This document shows, in pieces, positions 13,023 to 30,577 of a stretch of DNA of 64,000 bases. The DNA is taken from the NCBI RefSeq assembly GCF_003355475.1, contig NZ_CP031356.1, positions 3,286,001-3,350,000 of the forward strand, given 5' to 3'. The DNA comes from Brachybacterium saurashtrense. GTDB lineage: Bacteria > Actinomycetota > Actinomycetes > Actinomycetales > Dermabacteraceae. The first letter of the stretch is position 1. The number at the start of each line of letters is the position of its first letter. A program made the translations under genes and the position numbers. The notes under the pieces are model-generated. The model made no database searches. It was not told the DNA's origin and saw nothing but the letters and a program-made list of their open reading frames with translations.

Positions 13023-13235
13023 CTAGTTCGACAACTTCGTGTCCGTGATCCCCAGTTCCGCGGCGATCCCCATGACCGTGGTAGTCGGCGTCGGGCGGTA
13101 CGACTCGACAACATCACGACGGAACTCCGCCGAGTACGTCTTCCTGCCGATGACCAGGTCGTCTCGCTTCCTCCGGGTCGGACTCAGCGTGTCCACCTCG
13201 AGGAGGCAAGGCACCCAAAGCGGGCCCGAGAGCAT
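13023..13235 (-). pseudogene. IS3-family transposase OrfA, 5' fragment
   Basis: The frame 13235-13023 encodes RKTYSAEFRRDVVESY and GIAAELGITDTKLSN, the HTH_Tnp_1 region of IS3-family OrfA. It stops after about 40 homologous residues, before the helix and leucine zipper are complete, so this is a remnant. The upstream residues of the frame look uncoded. No intact terminal repeats were found. It points outward (left) from the adhesin island, while an IS3 OrfB fragment at 17.4 kb points right. Confidence 0.75.
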
Positions 13236-13292
13236 TTGAAGGCTCCCAGGCCCGCCCTAGGATGGCCCGTTGGGCCGACAAGTTAGCTCGCG

Positions 13293-16244
13293 TCAGAGAC
13301 GGAACCGCCTGATGGCTGCGAACCCTCCGGCAAGTGCCATCAGTGATGCCAGCGCACCGCCGACGATCATTCCGATGCCAGGACCCTGCGCCTGCAAGTC
13401 ACCAGTCGGGATCGTCGGATTGTCCAGGTTGCCCGGCTGATCAGGGGTGCCCGGCTGATCAGGGGTGCCCGGCTGATCAGGGGTGCCCGGCTGATCAGGG
13501 GTGCCCGGCTGATCAGGGGTGCCCGGCTGATCAGGGGTGCCCGGCTGTACCGTCACCACAATCTCGGCTTCCGTTGGAGTGCCGTTCTCGTCCTGAACGG
13601 TGTAGAGCAACGGCGTTGTCTTGCCGGAGAAACCGTCCTCCGGAGCGAACGTCACCTCACCCGTCTCCGGATTCACCGTGAACGTGCCTTCGCCGGGAAC
13701 CGTAACCTCATCCACTGGGTCACCCGACTCCGGATCGATCAGGTCCACAGTTGTGGGATCCAGTGGAACATCCTCGTCACCCGAGTCATCGTTATCCAGG
13801 ATGGGTACGGTCACCGGCGTGTTCTCAGGAGTGGTGGCTGTGTCATCCACAGCTTCCGGAGTGACCGGCTCGACCGTGACTGTCACGGTGGAGTCAGCGG
13901 TCTGGCCATCTTCATCGGTGATCCGGTACGGAACCGCGGGGGTCTCGCCCGTGAATTCAGGCACTGGCGTGAAGACCGCGTTGCCGTCGTCGTCCACGGT
14001 GAACGTGCCGACATCCGGGATCTCGACCGAGTCGACCGGCTCGCCGTTCTCGTCCAGCAGAGTGGTCAGCGTCGGATCGATCGGTGAATCGCCCGGGGTG
14101 TCATTGTCCAGCAGCGGCACCGTCACCGGCACGCCCTGCGGAGTCGTGTCCGAATCAGGATCGGCAACCGGCGGCGCAACCTCGCCCGGCTCGACCGTGA
14201 CTGTCACGGTGGAGTCAGCGGTCTGGCCATCTTCATCGGTGATCCGGTACGGAACCGCGGGGGTCTCGCCCGTGAATTCAGGCACTGGCGTGAAGACCGC
14301 GTTGCCGTCGTCGTCCACGGTGAACGTGCCGACATCCGGGATCTCGACCGAGTCGACCGGCTCGCCGTTCTCGTCCAGCAGAGTGGTCAGCGTCGGATCG
14401 ATCGGTGAATCGCCCGGGGTGTCATTGTCCAGCAGCGGCACCGTCACCGGCACGCCCTGCGGAGTCGTGTCCGAATCAGGATCGGCAACCGGCGGCGCAA
14501 CCTCGCCCGGCTCGACCGTGACTGTCACGGTGGAGTCAGCGGTCTGGCCATCTTCATCGGTGATCCGGTACGGAACCGCGGGGGTCTCGCCCGTGAATTC
14601 AGGCACTGGCGTGAAGACCGCGTTGCCGTCGTCGTCCACGGTGAACGTGCCGACATCCGGGATCTCGACCGAGTCGACCGGCTCGCCGTTCTCGTCCAGC
14701 AGAGTGGTCAGCGTCGGATCGATCGGTGAATCGCCCGGGGTGTCATTGTCCAGCAGCGGCACCGTCACCGGCACGCCCTGCGGAGTCGTGTCCGAATCAG
14801 GATCGGCAACCGGCGGCGCAACCTCGCCCGGCTCGACCGTGACTGTCACGGTGGAGTCAGCGGTCTGGCCATCTTCATCGGTGATCCGGTACGGAACCGC
14901 GGGGGTCTCGCCCGTGAATTCAGGCACTGGCGTGAAGACCGCGTTGCCGTCGTCGTCCACGGTGAACGTGCCGACATCCGGGATCTCGACCGAGTCGACC
15001 GGCTCGCCGTTCTCGTCCAGCAGAGTGGTCAGCGTCGGATCGATCGGTGAATCGCCCGGGGTGTCATTGTCCAGCAGCGGCACCGTCACCGGCACGCCCT
15101 GCGGAGTCGTGTCCGAATCAGGATCGGCAACCGGCGGCGCAACCTCGCCCGGCTCGACCGTGACTGTCACGGTGGAGTCAGCGGTCTGGCCATCTTCATC
15201 GGTGATCCGGTACGGAACCGCGGGGGTCTCGCCCGTGAATTCAGGCACTGGCGTGAAGACCGCGTTGCCGTCGTCGTCCACGGTGAACGTGCCGACATCC
15301 GGGATCTCGACCGAGTCGACCGGCTCGCCGTTCTCGTCCAGCAGAGTGGTCAGCGTCGGATCGATCGGTGAATCGCCCGGGGTGTCATTGTCCAGCAGCG
15401 GCACCGTCACCGGCACGCCCTGCGGAGTCGTGTCCGAATCAGGATCGGCAACCGGCGGCGCAACCTCATCTTCGGTCGTCACCTCGCGCGTGGCATCGAC
15501 GCGCACGGCGTCTCCGGACCAGCTCATGTTGCGGAAGTTCGTGTACTCGATGCCACCGATCAGCCCATTGGCCAGGGAGATGGATACCCTCGTGGAGTGG
15601 CCCGTGGAGCCAGACTCATTCGCGGGCGCCGAGTCTGCGACGCGGATCCGCATGCTTCCGTCGCCGTTGTCCTGTGCGATATAGGTCATTCGTCCGGCAG
15701 GGGCCTGTCGGGAGTCGAAGTCAACCTCGAGGTCCGCGGGGTCGATCGGCTGACCGTTCGCATCTGTCGCGGTCACATCGAATACATACACCTTGCTGTC
15801 GATGTCGATGAAGGTGAAAGCCGAGTCCGAGACCTCGCTGTTCGGGCTATCGGTCTGATCGATGTTCGGCGCGAGATTGAACGCGACGAGCGCGTTTGGG
15901 TTGTCGCCGATGCGGAAGGACAGCCCCTGCCTGTGGTATCCGACCTCCTGCAGAGCGCGCGCGCGTGAGTTGCCTGCCTCTGGGCTCGTTGCGAATTGGT
16001 AAGGTCCGTAGGTGCCGGGACCAGTTTGTCCGTTTGGACCGTTGTTCGTGACGATCTCATCGCGCACCGTGTCCGCGCTGGCGGCGGTCGGCAGGGCAAT
16101 TAAGCCACCTGCGACCAGAGAGGCGGCAACGATGAGTCGAGCAGTGCTTCGCACACCGCTCAATCGGCCTCGGTCGGCGCAGCGAGGGCCATTAGCGCTC
16201 TGAGGCGGCGCTGGCTCTTGATCGACTCTGCGGGGGGCAGGCAT
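13293..16244 (-). CDS. CshA-type repeat fibrillar surface adhesin
   Basis: A 983-aa surface protein. Residues about 31-58 are a signal peptide (STARLIVAASLVAGGL...ASA). Residues 59-255 are a non-repetitive head that could bind a ligand. Then come five 107-aa repeats, identical as far as I can see, and a sixth divergent one. Their pattern (TVPLLDNDTPGD, GTFTVDDDGNAVFTPVPEF, YRITDEDGQT, TVTVTV) fits the CshA fibril repeat family. A stalk of six PGTPDQ units, a TG-containing spacer, one hydrophobic helix and IRRFRL complete the anchor. No LPxTG is present; the nearest element is TIPTGD. ATG 16244 has GGAGG six bases upstream. A sortase gene is divergent next to it. Base composition is lower in G+C than the surroundings. 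Confidence 0.85.
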   Translation of the reverse strand: MPAPRRVDQEPAPPQSANGPRCADRGRLSGVRSTARLIVAASLVAGGLIALPTAASADTVRDEIVTNNGPNGQTGPGTYGPYQFATSPEAGNSRARALQEVGYHRQGLSFRIGDNPNALVAFNLAPNIDQTDSPNSEVSDSAFTFIDIDSKVYVFDVTATDANGQPIDPADLEVDFDSRQAPAGRMTYIAQDNGDGSMRIRVADSAPANESGSTGHSTRVSISLANGLIGGIEYTNFRNMSWSGDAVRVDATREVTTEDEVAPPVADPDSDTTPQGVPVTVPLLDNDTPGDSPIDPTLTTLLDENGEPVDSVEIPDVGTFTVDDDGNAVFTPVPEFTGETPAVPYRITDEDGQTADSTVTVTVEPGEVAPPVADPDSDTTPQGVPVTVPLLDNDTPGDSPIDPTLTTLLDENGEPVDSVEIPDVGTFTVDDDGNAVFTPVPEFTGETPAVPYRITDEDGQTADSTVTVTVEPGEVAPPVADPDSDTTPQGVPVTVPLLDNDTPGDSPIDPTLTTLLDENGEPVDSVEIPDVGTFTVDDDGNAVFTPVPEFTGETPAVPYRITDEDGQTADSTVTVTVEPGEVAPPVADPDSDTTPQGVPVTVPLLDNDTPGDSPIDPTLTTLLDENGEPVDSVEIPDVGTFTVDDDGNAVFTPVPEFTGETPAVPYRITDEDGQTADSTVTVTVEPGEVAPPVADPDSDTTPQGVPVTVPLLDNDTPGDSPIDPTLTTLLDENGEPVDSVEIPDVGTFTVDDDGNAVFTPVPEFTGETPAVPYRITDEDGQTADSTVTVTVEPVTPEAVDDTATTPENTPVTVPILDNDDSGDEDVPLDPTTVDLIDPESGDPVDEVTVPGEGTFTVNPETGEVTFAPEDGFSGKTTPLLYTVQDENGTPTEAEIVVTVQPGTPDQPGTPDQPGTPDQPGTPDQPGTPDQPGTPDQPGNLDNPTIPTGDLQAQGPGIGMIVGGALASLMALAGGFAAIRRFRL
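13437..13544. repeat. Six 18-bp tandem repeats (PGTPDQ stalk)
   Basis: The unit CTGATCAGGGGTGCCCGG occurs six times without visible change. It encodes PGTPDQ in the adhesin stalk. Copy number could change in frame, altering how far the adhesin projects from the wall. Confidence 0.9.
13871..15475. repeat. Five 321-bp tandem repeats in the adhesin gene, identical by eye
   Basis: Unit starts at 13871, 14192, 14513, 14834 and 15155 are exactly 321 bp apart and read the same throughout by eye. Each encodes 107 residues. The array ends near 15475 where ACCTCGCC changes to ACCTCATC. Such identity indicates recent amplification or ongoing gene conversion; the true copy number may differ from the assembly. 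Confidence 0.92.
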
Positions 16245-16333: not shown

Positions 16334-16426
16334 TGTCACCGTGACACACGGTACATAGCTGAGGAGGTCCTGGGAAGGTCGAAGTCACATCCGTCCATGT
16401 CCCCGAACGCATCGTGAATGTATAGT
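16334..16426. promoter_or_regulatory. Divergent adhesin/sortase promoter region with palindrome
   Basis: TGTCAC-C-GTGACA (16334-16346) is a perfect palindrome with a one-base centre. It lies 90 bp upstream of the adhesin start and 172 bp upstream of the sortase start. On the plus strand TATAGT (16421-16426) is a likely -10 for the sortase. On the minus strand TATGTA beside the palindrome (about 16356-16351) may be the adhesin -10. No regulator is encoded in the island. Confidence 0.45.
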
Positions 16427-16517
16427 GAATCCTGTAGGGCGACGTCTGTATCGCCTTTCGTCGCCCTGTAAGGTTGCGAGGGGCCCGCCTGTCCGCCTGA
16501 CTCCAGAAAGGTCTCTT

Positions 16518-17270
16518 GTGGCTCGTACGCGCTTCGCGCCACTGGTCGCCACCCTGTCCTTCTGCGCAGCTGTGTTCGTCGCGGGGCTCGTGCTCGTGGT
16601 GCTCGGGAGCGGCGAATCCTCCCCCGAGGCAACCCCGACACCCTTGGTCGATGTCTCGATTTCGCCCGAGGAGGCTCGGGACCTTGCCGAGGACGAACCG
16701 GGCGACGGGGCTGCTGAGCTTGTCGAGCCTCCCCCTGGCGACCTCGGGCCCTATGTCCGTACTGACCCCGTGCAATCGGTGTGGAGCGAGGTGGTCGCCG
16801 GCGATCGGACCGACAATCTCCCCGCAGACATGCTCGTGGTCCCGTCGTTGCCGGTCGAGGCCTCTATCGTGCGCGAGGGCGTTGAGGACGGAGCGATGTC
16901 CCTTCCCGCAGATCTGGCCGATGTTGGCCTCCTGGAAACCACGTCCGCGCTCGACGCAGATACTGGCAGTTCCCTCATCGCTGGCCACGTCACACAGGGG
17001 GGCAATCCTGGCGCGCTCTTCCTCCTCGGCCTCGCTGAGCCCGGAGCATCCGTCGTGACGACGGACGCAGAGGGCAGGGCGACGGTGTGGGCTATTACGT
17101 CGATAACCTCCTACAACAAGCAGAAGCTTCCCAAGGAGATATTCGAGACCAGCGGAGAACGTCGCCTCGTACTCGTGACCTGCGGTGGCGAGGTGGTTCG
17201 TACAGACGACGGCAGGTGGACGCATGAAGACAACATCGTCGTCACGGCTGTGCCTATGACCGGTGGCTGA
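16518..17270 (+). CDS. Class F-like sortase
   Basis: A 250-aa membrane-anchored transpeptidase. Residues 5-30 form one N-terminal membrane helix, followed by an acidic Pro-rich linker (about 33-80). The sortase domain has the catalytic His157 in SSLIAGHVTQGG and Cys222 in LVLVTCGGEV, with the usual DNIVVTA ending. The layout and the GAMSLPADLADVG segment resemble actinobacterial class F sortases. The arginine normally near the C-terminus is not in its usual place (HEDN instead of YRDN); Arg233 or Arg228 may serve. GTG 16518 has AGAAAGG upstream. Divergence from the adhesin suggests a dedicated sortase-substrate pair that links the adhesin to peptidoglycan. Confidence 0.85.
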   Translation: MARTRFAPLVATLSFCAAVFVAGLVLVVLGSGESSPEATPTPLVDVSISPEEARDLAEDEPGDGAAELVEPPPGDLGPYVRTDPVQSVWSEVVAGDRTDNLPADMLVVPSLPVEASIVREGVEDGAMSLPADLADVGLLETTSALDADTGSSLIAGHVTQGGNPGALFLLGLAEPGASVVTTDAEGRATVWAITSITSYNKQKLPKEIFETSGERRLVLVTCGGEVVRTDDGRWTHEDNIVVTAVPMTGG

Positions 17271-17345: not shown

Positions 17346-17663
17346 GTGAGTCAGGGTGAATCGTCTGTAGGTGTTCGTGGTGCTCCGGACGGGAAACGTG
17401 CCGGTGACCTGTTGAATCGTGACTTCACCGCGGCAGCTCCGAACCTGGTGTGGGTCGCCGACTTCACCTACGTCCGCACCTGGGCGGGGTTCGTCTACTT
17501 CGCGTTCGTCGTGGGCTTGTTCGCCCCGCGGATTGTCGGCTGGCACGCTTCCACCTCGAAGCAAGTTGACCTGGTCATGACCCCACTGCGCATCGCGCTC
17601 TGGCAACGGGAATGGGAAGGAAGCCCCTTCTCACCTGGGAATTTAGTGGCTCTTCACAGATGA
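17346..17663 (+). pseudogene. IS3-family transposase OrfB, internal fragment
   Basis: The frame encodes KRAGDLLNRDFTAAAPN, LVWVADFTYVRTWAGFVYFAF and IVGWHASTSKQVDLVM, part of the rve integrase core of IS3 OrfB, including the first catalytic Asp in ADFTYV. The N-terminus is missing and homology ends after LWQRE at about 17610, where ISL3-derived sequence begins shortly after. The later catalytic residues are absent, so it is inactive. Confidence 0.82.
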
Positions 17664-17921
17664 GGGTGTAGGAGCTGGCGGCGCGGCGGTGTCGGGATAG
17701 ACGTCGAGGTCTCCCGATGATGGAAGTTCCTACGCTCGCCATCTGGAAGACCTCGACGTGCTCAACGCTACCTTCACCGCGCCCGATCTCGATACCTTCA
17801 GCCAGCTTGACCGGCTGGGCCTGACCGTGACGGGGCAGCTGATCGAGCCGCACCGATCGGTGTTGGAGTGTCGCGTGCTCGAACCGGACAACTGGTGCCA
17901 CGGTTGCGGCCAGCAAGGCGT
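17648..17921 (+). mobile_element. ISL3-family element, left-end fragment
   Basis: The sequence starts with GGCTCTTCACAGATGAGGG, which resembles ISL3 left inverted repeats. A frame opening at GTG 17758 encodes an ISL3 transposase N-terminus (TVTGQLIEPHRSVLECRVLE and the zinc-finger start DNWCHGCG), cut at 17921 by the IS1634-type element. An 11-bp inverted repeat, ACGTCGAGGTC (17701-17711) and GACCTCGACGT (17749-17759), stands just before the start codon and could block impinging transcription. The right part of the element is absent from the window. Confidence 0.75.
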
Positions 17922-19689
17922 CCTGACTTGGCTCACGTCGTCAGCTGTTCGCCTGGCGCGGGGCTGTGACCTGGGTTGATGGTGCTTGAGTGGGCTAGGT
18001 TCACGCACTAATCCGGGGTGTTCTAGGCTCGTTGGGTGGCGTTCATCAGGCGGGTTCGAACGAAGTCGGGGGCCACGGCCGTGCAGATCGCGGAGTACGC
18101 GCAGGGGCGTCAGCGGATCATCGAGCATCTCGGCTCCGCGCATACCGAGGCGGAGCTCGGTGTGCTGTTGGAGAAGGGCCAACAGCTTCTCGAGGACCCG
18201 GCCCAGGAGGCACTCGATCTGGGCGTGAGCCCGGAACCCGTCGTGACTCGGATCCAGCCACCTGCTGAGCAGCAGGGCGAGCTCCTTATGCCACCGGCAC
18301 AGTGTGAGGAGGGCCGTGACGGGACCGGGCGGGTGCAGTCCACCTCGAGCCATCTCCTCTATGACGTGCTGACCAGTGCATATGCGTCGCTGGGGTTCGA
18401 TGAGGTCGATGACGCTGTCTTCCGGGATCTGGTGATCGCGCGGATTGTCGAGCCGACCTCGAAACGCGACGCCGCCCGGGTCCTGGCCGACCTCGGCGCC
18501 TCACCGGTCAGCTACGCCACTGTGAAGCGGCACCTGCGGTCCGTGCTCGAGGACGACTACCGTGCCGCCATCGCCTCGAAGTGCTTCGAGCACGTCTGGA
18601 GCCGCGGTGACATCTCGCTGGTCCTCTACGACGTCACCACCCTCTACTTCGAGGCCGAGAAGGAAGACGACCTCCGCAAAGTGGGATTCTCCAAGAAGCG
18701 GAGGGTCGACCCGCAGATCGTTGTCGGCCTGCTGGTGGATCGTCGGGGGTTCCCGCTGGAGATCGGCCGTTTCGAGGGGAACAAGGCCGAGACCAAGACG
18801 ATCCTGCCGGTCATTTGTCAGTTCCAGGACCGCCACGGGCTTGCGGACATCGTCGTGGTGGCCGATGCCGGCATGCTCTCCGCGGACAACCTCCGCGAGC
18901 TGGACGAGGCAGGCCTGCGGTTCATCGTCGGGTCGCGGCAGACCAAGGCCCCGCACGACCTGGACAGTCACGTCCACTGGCACGGCGATGCCTTCGCCGA
19001 CGGGCAGGTCATCGACACGGTCACGCCCCGGCACGGCAACTCGCAGGTCAACGATCGTGCCCTGCGGGCTGAGCCGACCTGGGACCCGAAGCAGCACTCC
19101 CACTCGTGGCGGGTCGTGTGGTCGTTCTCCCGCAAGCGCGGAGTGCGGGACCACAAGACGCTCACCGCTCAGGAGAACCGGGCCCGCGCGATCATCGACG
19201 GCGACAAGCCGGTCAAGAACGCCCGCTTCGTCAAGACCACCGCTGGTGGCCGCCACCTGGACCAGAAGAACATCGACCGTGCCCGCTCCGTGGCCGGGCT
19301 GAAGGGCTACGTCACCAACATCCCAGCACCCGAGATGCCGCCACGAGAGGTGATCTCGAGCTACCACGACCTCTGGCGTGTTGAGCAGTCGTTCCGCATG
19401 TCTAAGGCGGACCTGCAGGCCAGGCCCATGTTCCACCATAGTCGAGACGCGATCGAAGCCCACCTCCCACTGGTCTTCGCGGCACTGGCCGTCTCCAGGG
19501 CCGTCCAGCAGCGCACTGGCCTCGCGATCGGCAACGTCATCAAGAAGCTCCGGCCCCTGCGCTCAGCGACCATCGCGATCAACGGCACCACCCAGACCTT
19601 CCCGCCCCACGTGCCCGACGAGCTGACCAGACTCATCGAACAGATCCAGACACCCGAACCCACGCACTAACGAAATGAGCCAAGTCAGG
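17922..19689 (+). mobile_element. Complete IS1634-family insertion sequence
   Basis: The ends match as inverted repeats: CCTGACTTGGCTCA at 17922-17935 and its complement at 19676-19689, with partial matching beyond. The 1768-bp element carries one intact transposase. I see no convincing target duplication: the left flank is ISL3 sequence while the right flank runs straight into the dehydrogenase gene region. A deletion next to the insertion probably removed the rest of the ISL3 element. Confidence 0.85.
18036..19670 (+). CDS. IS1634-family DDE transposase
   Basis: A 544-aa transposase, full length for the IS1634 group (IS4-related). The DDE residues are visible: first Asp in SLVLYDVTTLYFEAE, second Asp in VVVADAGMLSADN and Glu in LWRVEQSFRMSKADL, in the Y-(2)-R-(3)-E-(6)-K-like block of the IS4 superfamily. 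The start is GTG 18036 and the stop lies six bases inside the right inverted repeat. No frameshift is apparent, so the element may still be active. The codon choice resembles the host. Confidence 0.93.
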   Translation: MAFIRRVRTKSGATAVQIAEYAQGRQRIIEHLGSAHTEAELGVLLEKGQQLLEDPAQEALDLGVSPEPVVTRIQPPAEQQGELLMPPAQCEEGRDGTGRVQSTSSHLLYDVLTSAYASLGFDEVDDAVFRDLVIARIVEPTSKRDAARVLADLGASPVSYATVKRHLRSVLEDDYRAAIASKCFEHVWSRGDISLVLYDVTTLYFEAEKEDDLRKVGFSKKRRVDPQIVVGLLVDRRGFPLEIGRFEGNKAETKTILPVICQFQDRHGLADIVVVADAGMLSADNLRELDEAGLRFIVGSRQTKAPHDLDSHVHWHGDAFADGQVIDTVTPRHGNSQVNDRALRAEPTWDPKQHSHSWRVVWSFSRKRGVRDHKTLTAQENRARAIIDGDKPVKNARFVKTTAGGRHLDQKNIDRARSVAGLKGYVTNIPAPEMPPREVISSYHDLWRVEQSFRMSKADLQARPMFHHSRDAIEAHLPLVFAALAVSRAVQQRTGLAIGNVIKKLRPLRSATIAINGTTQTFPPHVPDELTRLIEQIQTPEPTH

Positions 19690-19713
19690 TCGAACGACGC
19701 GGTGCGGTGTGGC

Positions 19714-23287: not shown

Positions 23288-24555
23288 CGGGTGGTCTCCT
23301 GAGGATCGGTGGCGGTGGCGGTGGCGGTGGCGGTGGCGGTGGCGGTGGCGGTGTCGGTGGTGCTCTCGGGGTCGACGGGGGTCCAGCGCGAGCCGTCGGC
23401 GTCGCTGGCCTCGACCGCGGCGAGCACACGCTGCACGTGCAGCGCCTCGGCGAACGAGGGGGAGGGGTCGACGCCCTCCCCGATGGCGCGCACGAGATCG
23501 GCGATCTCGTGGGTGAAGGTGTGCTCGTAGCCGAGGCCGTGCCCGGTGGGCCACCACGCCGCGGCGTAGGGATGCTCCGGCTCGGTGGTGAGCACGCGGG
23601 TGAAGCCCTGTCGGCCCGCGGGCGCGGTCGCGTCGTAGATCTCCAGCTCGTTCATCCGCTCGAAGTCGAAGGCGATCGAGCCGTTCGCGCCGTTGATCTC
23701 CACCCGGATCGCGTTCTTGCGCCCGGTGGCCATGCGGGTGGCCTCGAACTGGCCCAGCACCCCGCCCGCGAAGCGTGCCGTGAACAGGGCGGTGTCGTCG
23801 ACCGTGACCCGGCCGCGCTCGCCGGAGGCATCCCCCTTCCCGCCGAGGCCCTGCGCCGACCCGGCGACGGGCCGGGTGGGCACGACGGTGGTGAGGGTGG
23901 CGGAGACCGCCTCGATGTCGAGCCCGGTGATCCACTGGGTGAGGTCGATGACGTGCGCGCCGATGTCCCCGAGCGCCCCGGAGCCGGCCGTGTCCTTGTC
24001 GAGCCTCCAGGTCATGGGGGCGTCCGCGTCGGAGAGCCAGTCCTGCAGGTACTGGGCGCGGACCTGCCGGATCTCGCCCACGAACCCCTCCTCGACGAGC
24101 TGCCGCGCATAGGCGAGAGCCGGGGTGCGGCGGTAGGAGAAGCCGCAGAGCGAGAGGATGCCGTCCCGGGCGGCGGCCACCGCGGCCGCCGTCATCTCCT
24201 CGGACTCCGCCACCGAGTTCGCCAGCGGCTTCTCGCACAGCACGTGCTTGCCCGCGGCGAGCGCGGCGAGGGTGATCTCGTGGTGGGTGTCGCCGGGGGA
24301 GCAGATGTCGATCACGTCGATCTCAGGGTCCTCGAGGAGGTCCTGCCACCGGGTGGTGTGCGCGGTGAAGCCGTACCGCGCGGCGGCGTCGGCGACCGAG
24401 GCCTCCGTGCGGCCCGCGATCGTGTGCAGCACCGGGGTGCGCGGCAGGTCGAAGAACCGGTGCGCCGTGCGCCAGGCATGGGAGTGGGCGGCGCCCATGA
24501 AGCCGTAGCCGATCAGGCCGACGTTCAGGGGTGCGGGGGAGGTCTGGTCACTCAT
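23284..24555 (-). CDS. Gfo/Idh/MocA-family oxidoreductase with repeat tail
   Basis: A 423-aa dehydrogenase. The N-terminus reads NVGLIGYGFMGAAHSHAW (GxGxxG) and the signature block is KHVLCEKPLANS. The substrate domain has GALGDIGAHVIDLTQWITG. The C-terminus ends in an alternating Ala-Thr tract encoded by seven perfect GGTGGC units plus near-copies, which looks like an unstable, structurally irrelevant tail. The start ATG 24555 has GGAGAC upstream and follows the permease gene after 35 bp; the stop overlaps the ThuA start. Together with the ThuA protein and the next dehydrogenase it forms the catabolic half of the importer operon. Confidence 0.87.
   Translation of the reverse strand: MSDQTSPAPLNVGLIGYGFMGAAHSHAWRTAHRFFDLPRTPVLHTIAGRTEASVADAAARYGFTAHTTRWQDLLEDPEIDVIDICSPGDTHHEITLAALAAGKHVLCEKPLANSVAESEEMTAAAVAAARDGILSLCGFSYRRTPALAYARQLVEEGFVGEIRQVRAQYLQDWLSDADAPMTWRLDKDTAGSGALGDIGAHVIDLTQWITGLDIEAVSATLTTVVPTRPVAGSAQGLGGKGDASGERGRVTVDDTALFTARFAGGVLGQFEATRMATGRKNAIRVEINGANGSIAFDFERMNELEIYDATAPAGRQGFTRVLTTEPEHPYAAAWWPTGHGLGYEHTFTHEIADLVRAIGEGVDPSPSFAEALHVQRVLAAVEASDADGSRWTPVDPESTTDTATATATATATATATDPQETTR
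23308..23349. repeat. Hexanucleotide microsatellite (GGTGGC)7
   Basis: Seven perfect 6-bp units inside the 3' end of the dehydrogenase gene. Slippage would add or remove Ala-Thr pairs without shifting the frame. Confidence 0.9.
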
Positions 24556-29137: not shown

Positions 29138-30307
29138 CTACGCCCGTCGCGCCTGCTCGATCCACGCCACCGGCTGATCGAACACGGGCTGCAGCGCGGC
29201 GCGCGCCGCGCCGTGCAGCGCCGGGTCCGCGAGGCCGTCGGCCCGCTCGATGGCGATCGGCCCGGCCTCCGCGGCGAGGGCGTGGCGGTCCACCGTCTCC
29301 TGCACCACCGGCGTGATCTCCTCCGCGATCGGGGCGAGGTAGCCCGAGAGCACCACGGTGGACAGGTCCAGCACGTTCAGGGCGTTGGCGATCGCCAGGC
29401 CCAGCGACCGGCCGATCACGCCGATCACCTCGGCGCGGCTCGAGCTGCGCGCCAGCTCGTCCACCAGGTCCTCGATCCGCACGTCGTCGGAGAGCCCCGC
29501 CTGGCGCACCAGCGAGAGGTAGGAGATGTAGGCCTCGAGGCAGCCCCGTCGGCCGCAGCGGCACCGCCGCCCGTCGGGCGCGACCACCGTGTGCCCCAGC
29601 TCGCCGGCCCAGCCGTGCGCGCCCTCGAGCACGCCGCCGTCGAGCACCACGGCGCCGCCTACGCCCGTCGAGCCGCGCAGGTAGAGGAACGACTCGCCGG
29701 GGCGGCGGTCGATCTCGGTGAGCACCGAGAGCCGGTTGTCGTTCTGGGCCGAGACGGGCCACTGCGCGGGCTCGAGCAGCTCCTGGAGCCGGGCGACGAC
29801 CGGGACGTCCGCCCAGTCCAGGCCGGGGGCGGAGAGGGTGCGGCCGTCCTCGGGAGAGAGGCGGCCGGGGATCGCCGCGGTGACGCCCACGACGGGCAGA
29901 TCCGGCAGCTCGGCGCGGACCTCGTGGACCAGCTGTGCGGCCAGCGCCAGGGCGTCCTCCGCGGTGCCCTCGGCCACCCGGTGATAGGTGGTGCGCCGGG
30001 CCAGCTCGGCGCCGGTGAGGTCGATGCCCAGGCAGGAGATGTGATCCGCGGCGATCTCGAGACCGATCGCGAGCAGGGTCCGCGCCGCGGGGCGCAGCGG
30101 CACCATCGGGCGGCCCGCCCCGGCGGAGACCGGCGCGCCCTCCTCCACCAGCCCGGCGCCCACGAGCTCCTCGACGAGCTTGGAGACGGTGGGCTTGGTG
30201 AGGGAGGTGAGGGTGGCGAGGCCCGCGCGCGAGGTGGGGGAGGGGGCCGCCTGCAGGGCGCGCAGCACCGCGGAGAGGTTGTGCTCGCGCAGGTGGGTGG
30301 ACTGCAT
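29138..30307 (-). CDS. xylR: ROK-family repressor, XylR-like
   Basis: A 389-aa regulator. The N-terminal winged helix (about 10-65) reads NLSAVLRALQ...SRAGLATLTSLTKPTVSKLVEELVGAGLVEEG. The ROK sugar-kinase-like domain has GLEIAADHISCLGIDLTG, LYLRGSTGVGGAVVLDGG, GWAGELGHTVV and a zinc motif CRCGRRGCLEAY. Position decides the name: it is divergent from xylA, and a TTAGTAA/TTACTAA palindrome between them matches known XylR boxes. Xylose would be the inducer. ATG 30307 has a GGAGAGG ten bases upstream. A run of 14 GGTGC units lies immediately before that leader. Confidence 0.85.
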   Translation of the reverse strand: MQSTHLREHNLSAVLRALQAAPSPTSRAGLATLTSLTKPTVSKLVEELVGAGLVEEGAPVSAGAGRPMVPLRPAARTLLAIGLEIAADHISCLGIDLTGAELARRTTYHRVAEGTAEDALALAAQLVHEVRAELPDLPVVGVTAAIPGRLSPEDGRTLSAPGLDWADVPVVARLQELLEPAQWPVSAQNDNRLSVLTEIDRRPGESFLYLRGSTGVGGAVVLDGGVLEGAHGWAGELGHTVVAPDGRRCRCGRRGCLEAYISYLSLVRQAGLSDDVRIEDLVDELARSSSRAEVIGVIGRSLGLAIANALNVLDLSTVVLSGYLAPIAEEITPVVQETVDRHALAAEAGPIAIERADGLADPALHGAARAALQPVFDQPVAWIEQARRA

Positions 30308-30327
30308 CGGGGGTGATCCTCTCCTCT

Positions 30328-30397
30328 GGTGCGGTGCGGTGCGGTGCGGTGCGGTGCGGTGCGGTGCGGTGCGGTGCGGTGCGGTGCGGTGCGGTGC
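30328..30397. repeat. Pentanucleotide microsatellite (GGTGC)14
   Basis: Fourteen perfect 5-bp units, 70 bp, begin 21 bp upstream of the xylR-like start codon. They lie in its leader, between the promoter and the Shine-Dalgarno. Degenerate G-rich copies continue to about 30490. Slippage would change the leader length in 5-base steps. Confidence 0.95.
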
Positions 30398-30528
30398 GGG
30401 CACCGGGCGGATGGTGTCGGGTGGGGCGGTGTCGGGCGGTGTCGAGCGGGATGGTGCCGGGCAGGGCGGTGCCGAGGGCGACCGAGCGGGCGTTATGCGG
30501 GCCGTGCCCTCGGGCCGCGCCGCCCGGC

Positions 30529-30577
30529 TTGTGCGGATCAGCATCCCATGAGTAGATTAGTAACGGATACTTACTAA
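30529..30577 (+). promoter_or_regulatory. xylA promoter with XylR box
   Basis: TTGTGC (30529-30534) and TAGATT (30553-30558) are 18 bp apart. TTAGTAA (30557-30563) and TTACTAA (30571-30577) form a perfect 7-bp inverted repeat with a 7-base spacer, from the -10 across the expected start site. It matches the TTAGT...ACTAA form of XylR operators in Gram-positive bacteria. Confidence 0.78.

Follow-up and report, generated by a model that had tools for sequence, protein, structure and literature searches.

The window analysed here, a stretch of 64,000 nucleotides of the Brachybacterium saurashtrense genome, contains on its minus strand an open reading frame of 983 amino acids (13293..16244) that encodes a predicted surface protein with CshA repeats. 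A gene for a putative sortase (16425..17270, plus strand, with a probable GTG start at 16518) lies next to it in divergent orientation. In the 983-residue product we observed six copies of the Pfam family PF19076 (E 1.5e-106, 350.5 bits with a cut-off of 27), and the NCBIfam model TIGR04225 also recognized it well above its threshold (E 1.9e-95, 314.6 bits with a cut-off of 60).

Architecture of the predicted surface protein and of the putative sortase beside it

Reading of the translation gives a signal-peptide-like N-terminus at about residues 31-58 (16071..16154, minus strand). It is followed by a domain of about 200 residues (residues 59-259; 15468..16070, minus strand), which could be the adhesive tip of the protein. 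We detected no Pfam match over the cut-off for this N-terminal domain, which is thus an orphan. Its model is rich in beta structure and of low confidence (pLDDT 52); the fold matches obtained with it were not usable.

The stalk comes next, with five identical 321-bp repeats of 107 amino acids arranged head to tail (13865..15467, minus strand) and then a sixth, diverged CshA repeat recognized by profile match and DNA comparison (residues 794-901; 13542..13865, minus strand). On the basis of the PF19076 and TIGR04225 matches, each 321-bp unit is one CshA-type fibril repeat. The best solved relative by sequence is the CshA repeat 6szc, which is matched via the sixth repeat, and 6szc is retrieved by fold as well, with a model of low confidence built from two identical units (rank 3, probability 1.00).

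Beyond the sixth repeat, a perfect 18-bp array of 6.6 copies (13430..13547, minus strand), found by TRF and by translation, encodes a proline-rich (PDQPGT)n linker that probably spans the cell wall. This is the second perfect array of the gene and it may likewise vary in length. The putative C-terminal membrane anchor read from the translation (13296..13427, minus strand) consists of NPTIPTGD, a hydrophobic helix and an RRFRL tail. The hydrophobic segment and the positively charged tail resemble a sorting signal; the canonical LPxTG is absent from this C-terminus, where IPTGD alone stands at the place of the motif.

The product of the divergent gene matches the general Sortase domain PF04203 (45.5 with a cut-off of 26.6). 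Its nearest NCBIfam model, that of class F sortases (NF033748), gave only 63.5 bits when 166 are required. An alignment with sortases of congeners shows that the His and Cys residues of the protein are still set in the motifs GHVT and TCGG. The adhesin and the sortase may be a co-adapted pair.

Identity of the repeats at the DNA level

The original prediction was that one gene of this window holds five identical 321-bp repeats between 13871 and 15475. TRF reports at 13865-15467 a period of 321 with 5.0 copies, 100% matches and 0% indels, and in a position-by-position test at an offset of 321 each base equals its counterpart over a single unbroken run of 1282/1282 positions. The predicted span was therefore correct within 6-8 bp, its last 8 bases falling outside the identical run. 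On the minus strand the units start at 15467, 15146, 14825, 14504 and 14183. When they are read codon by codon, there is no difference among units 1-4, and unit 5 departs from them in one base at its very end, at the junction with the next repeat. Scattered synonymous differences between units, which would have spoken against the prediction, were searched for and none was present inside the identical run. If two units of the same protein sequence drew their codons independently from the usage of the gene, they would match with p ~10^-37, so that their sameness reflects identity of the DNA and not constraint on the protein.

The absence of any difference between units sets a 95% upper bound of 0.23% per site on their divergence, with dS below about 0.9% between neighbours, whereas the adjacent sixth repeat, downstream on the minus strand, shares only 63.5% DNA identity with the array. 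The strong divergence of that repeat was thus confirmed, and the proposal of a very recent expansion or an active homogenisation is supported, because the units show zero differences.

These two histories are not separable, since the genomes searched yielded no ortholog. An old array whose identity is upheld by continuing gene conversion, instead of a recent burst of duplication, seems to us unlikely but deserving of serious weight. Zero differences are compatible with either history, and a second perfect array, that of 18 bp, is present within the same gene; however, the neighbouring sixth repeat, with its 63.5% identity, was not drawn in, and no ortholog homogenised to another unit, the mark of concerted evolution, came to light. 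The undrawn sixth repeat leans the interpretation toward recent expansion.

Another explanation is that the array is an artefact of the assembly, with a true copy number that differs and units made to look identical by consensus building or polishing. Indeed, short reads are unable to resolve five identical 321-bp units, and misassembly of repeat genes is a known problem (PMC6868369). We consider this improbable: the window is within a single contig of 3.72 Mb (completeness 100), which suggests long reads, for which an array of 1.6 kb is short, and the adjacent sixth repeat remained distinct. Finally, a constraint acting on the DNA itself, for instance an antisense gene, has practically no chance of being the cause: a plus-strand frame of 687 codons (13621-15684) is open through the array, but random recoding with five identical units gave an antisense frame with a median of 696 against the observed 692 (55% at least as long), and the known domain is on the sense strand, so that we rejected an antisense gene on the strength of the recoding test.

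Two other short arrays were observed in the window. A perfect pentanucleotide array, (GGTGC)14.4 (30328-30399), lies a short way upstream of the likely start of a ROK-family regulator (29138-30544, minus strand, PF00480); since its period is not divisible by three, changes in its length could affect the leader or the reading frame. In addition, a hexanucleotide array (CGGTGG)9 with 95% matches (23307-23360) lies close to where two sugar-oxidoreductase-like genes meet.

A low-GC segment with insertion sequences

The adhesin and sortase genes are located on a segment of about 6.8 kb littered with IS elements, in a genome of 3.72 Mb assembled as one contig. From about 13.0 to 19.7 kb the GC content is 63-66%, lower than the 71-76% of the sampled flanks. 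Sequence reading places IS3-like relics on either side of the adhesin and sortase genes: a putative OrfA relic of IS3 type bordering the segment on its low-coordinate side (13026..13256, minus strand, read from the translation) and a probable relic of an integrase-like IS3-type OrfB (17400..17650, plus strand). Further along, an element of the IS1634 family (17922..19689, plus strand; transposase ORF 18036-19670), bounded by terminal inverted repeats that lie at 17922 and 19689, looks complete and is the sole copy in the genome; its transposase matches NF033559 with E 1.6e-116 and 390 bits, for a cut-off of 100. Immediately before it, at 17750-17921, we also noticed in the sequence a possible fragment of an ISL3-type transposase, interrupted by the IS1634 element.

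Homology with the closest congeners ends at about 12915 and at 19704-19711, just beyond the end of the IS. A clean empty site was not found in the congeners because the gene order of this stretch is rearranged in them. The segment looks foreign and was, on the best reading, acquired horizontally.

We compared the locus with 37 congeners and 395 other genomes of the order, with one genome per species. The N-terminal domain was found in 0/37 congeners and in none of the genome contigs searched, and an array comparable to that of 321 bp was likewise seen in 0/37 congeners. Among the 395 other genomes of the order, the N-terminal domain had a lone partial match of 28% in one genome; this weak match belongs to a GEVED-domain adhesin and was rejected as an ortholog, as was a marginal match of 50 residues in a sample of the phylum. 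The best match to the repeat unit in the same 395 genomes has 53% amino acid identity. No donor of the array was found, named relatives of the unit being at most 54% identical in the genome contigs and at most 40% in plasmids. In repeat loci fetched as short samples and not as a survey, TRF arrays reached at most 78% matches in genomes of the order and 76-95% in named genomes of other phyla. A genus-conserved CshA-like surface protein, present in this genome (C1:2368716-2369549) and in most congeners, likewise has PF19076-like repeats, but it is encoded by a different gene in which they are few and diverged, and it was rejected as the source of the array.

A probable Periscope-type adhesin

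Periscope Proteins are surface proteins whose stalks are made of long, highly identical tandem domains in varying number, a variation for which intragenic recombination was proposed as the cause (Whelan et al. 2021, PMC8201768). CshA is named among them, and CshA_repeat, a new Pfam family, is among the stalk domains listed (PMC8201768; review PMC9704523). Their stalks are defined by folded domains in tandem, each exceeding 50 residues, that share very high identity; here we found five domains of 107 residues with 100% DNA identity. The 983-residue protein has in common with them a single chain, a stalk of identical domains, an N-terminal non-repeat domain and a putative C-terminal anchor. Judged by these sequence features, it has a Periscope-type anatomy and belongs to a known kind of system. 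It differs from the described examples by its actinobacterial host, by having no ortholog among the genomes sampled and by an N-terminal domain that belongs to no recognised binding family. With CshA of Streptococcus gordonii it shares the family of stalk repeats, Ig-like domains of about 100 residues, but its stalk is short (5 + 1 repeats), five of its repeats are identical in DNA, and the CshA non-repeat domains are not recognisable in it with Pfam.

Taken together, we consider it highly probable that the gene encodes a horizontally acquired, wall-anchored fibrillar adhesin of Periscope type, with a stalk that was recently expanded or homogenised. The adhesin would be secreted and its C-terminus attached to the cell wall, probably by the adjacent sortase, and the rod of Ig-like CshA repeats would hold the N-terminal binding domain off the cell. 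Tandem duplication together with unequal recombination or slippage may have lengthened the stalk recently or kept it uniform. Since the length of the unit is that of one CshA domain, every duplication step would add one whole rod segment, and stalk length would change in steps of exactly one 107-residue domain. With such steps, isolates should differ in copy number, and the reach of the tip should follow from it. Length variation of the array from strain to strain is likely by analogy, the greatest variation being known from the most identical arrays (PMC8201768, PMC9704523).

The adhesin and sortase genes would have arrived as a pair on the low-GC, IS-flanked segment. One may go further and propose a mobile cassette: IS-flanked DNA would carry along, as one unit, a CshA-repeat adhesin of variable length and a sortase dedicated to it, with an unusual sorting motif. 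This extension is doubtful in our opinion; if true, a recipient would gain a new, tunable surface fibre. The system is otherwise ordinary in kind, its particular points being an actinobacterial member of the Periscope group, a sortase of its own and an orphan domain at the putative tip. If copy number proves to differ between isolates, the locus would offer a simple case for studying the rate at which arrays of identical domains grow and shrink. The locus would carry a mechanism of surface variation, described mainly from human-associated bacteria, over to a genus of actinobacteria where the gene has the look of a recent acquisition.
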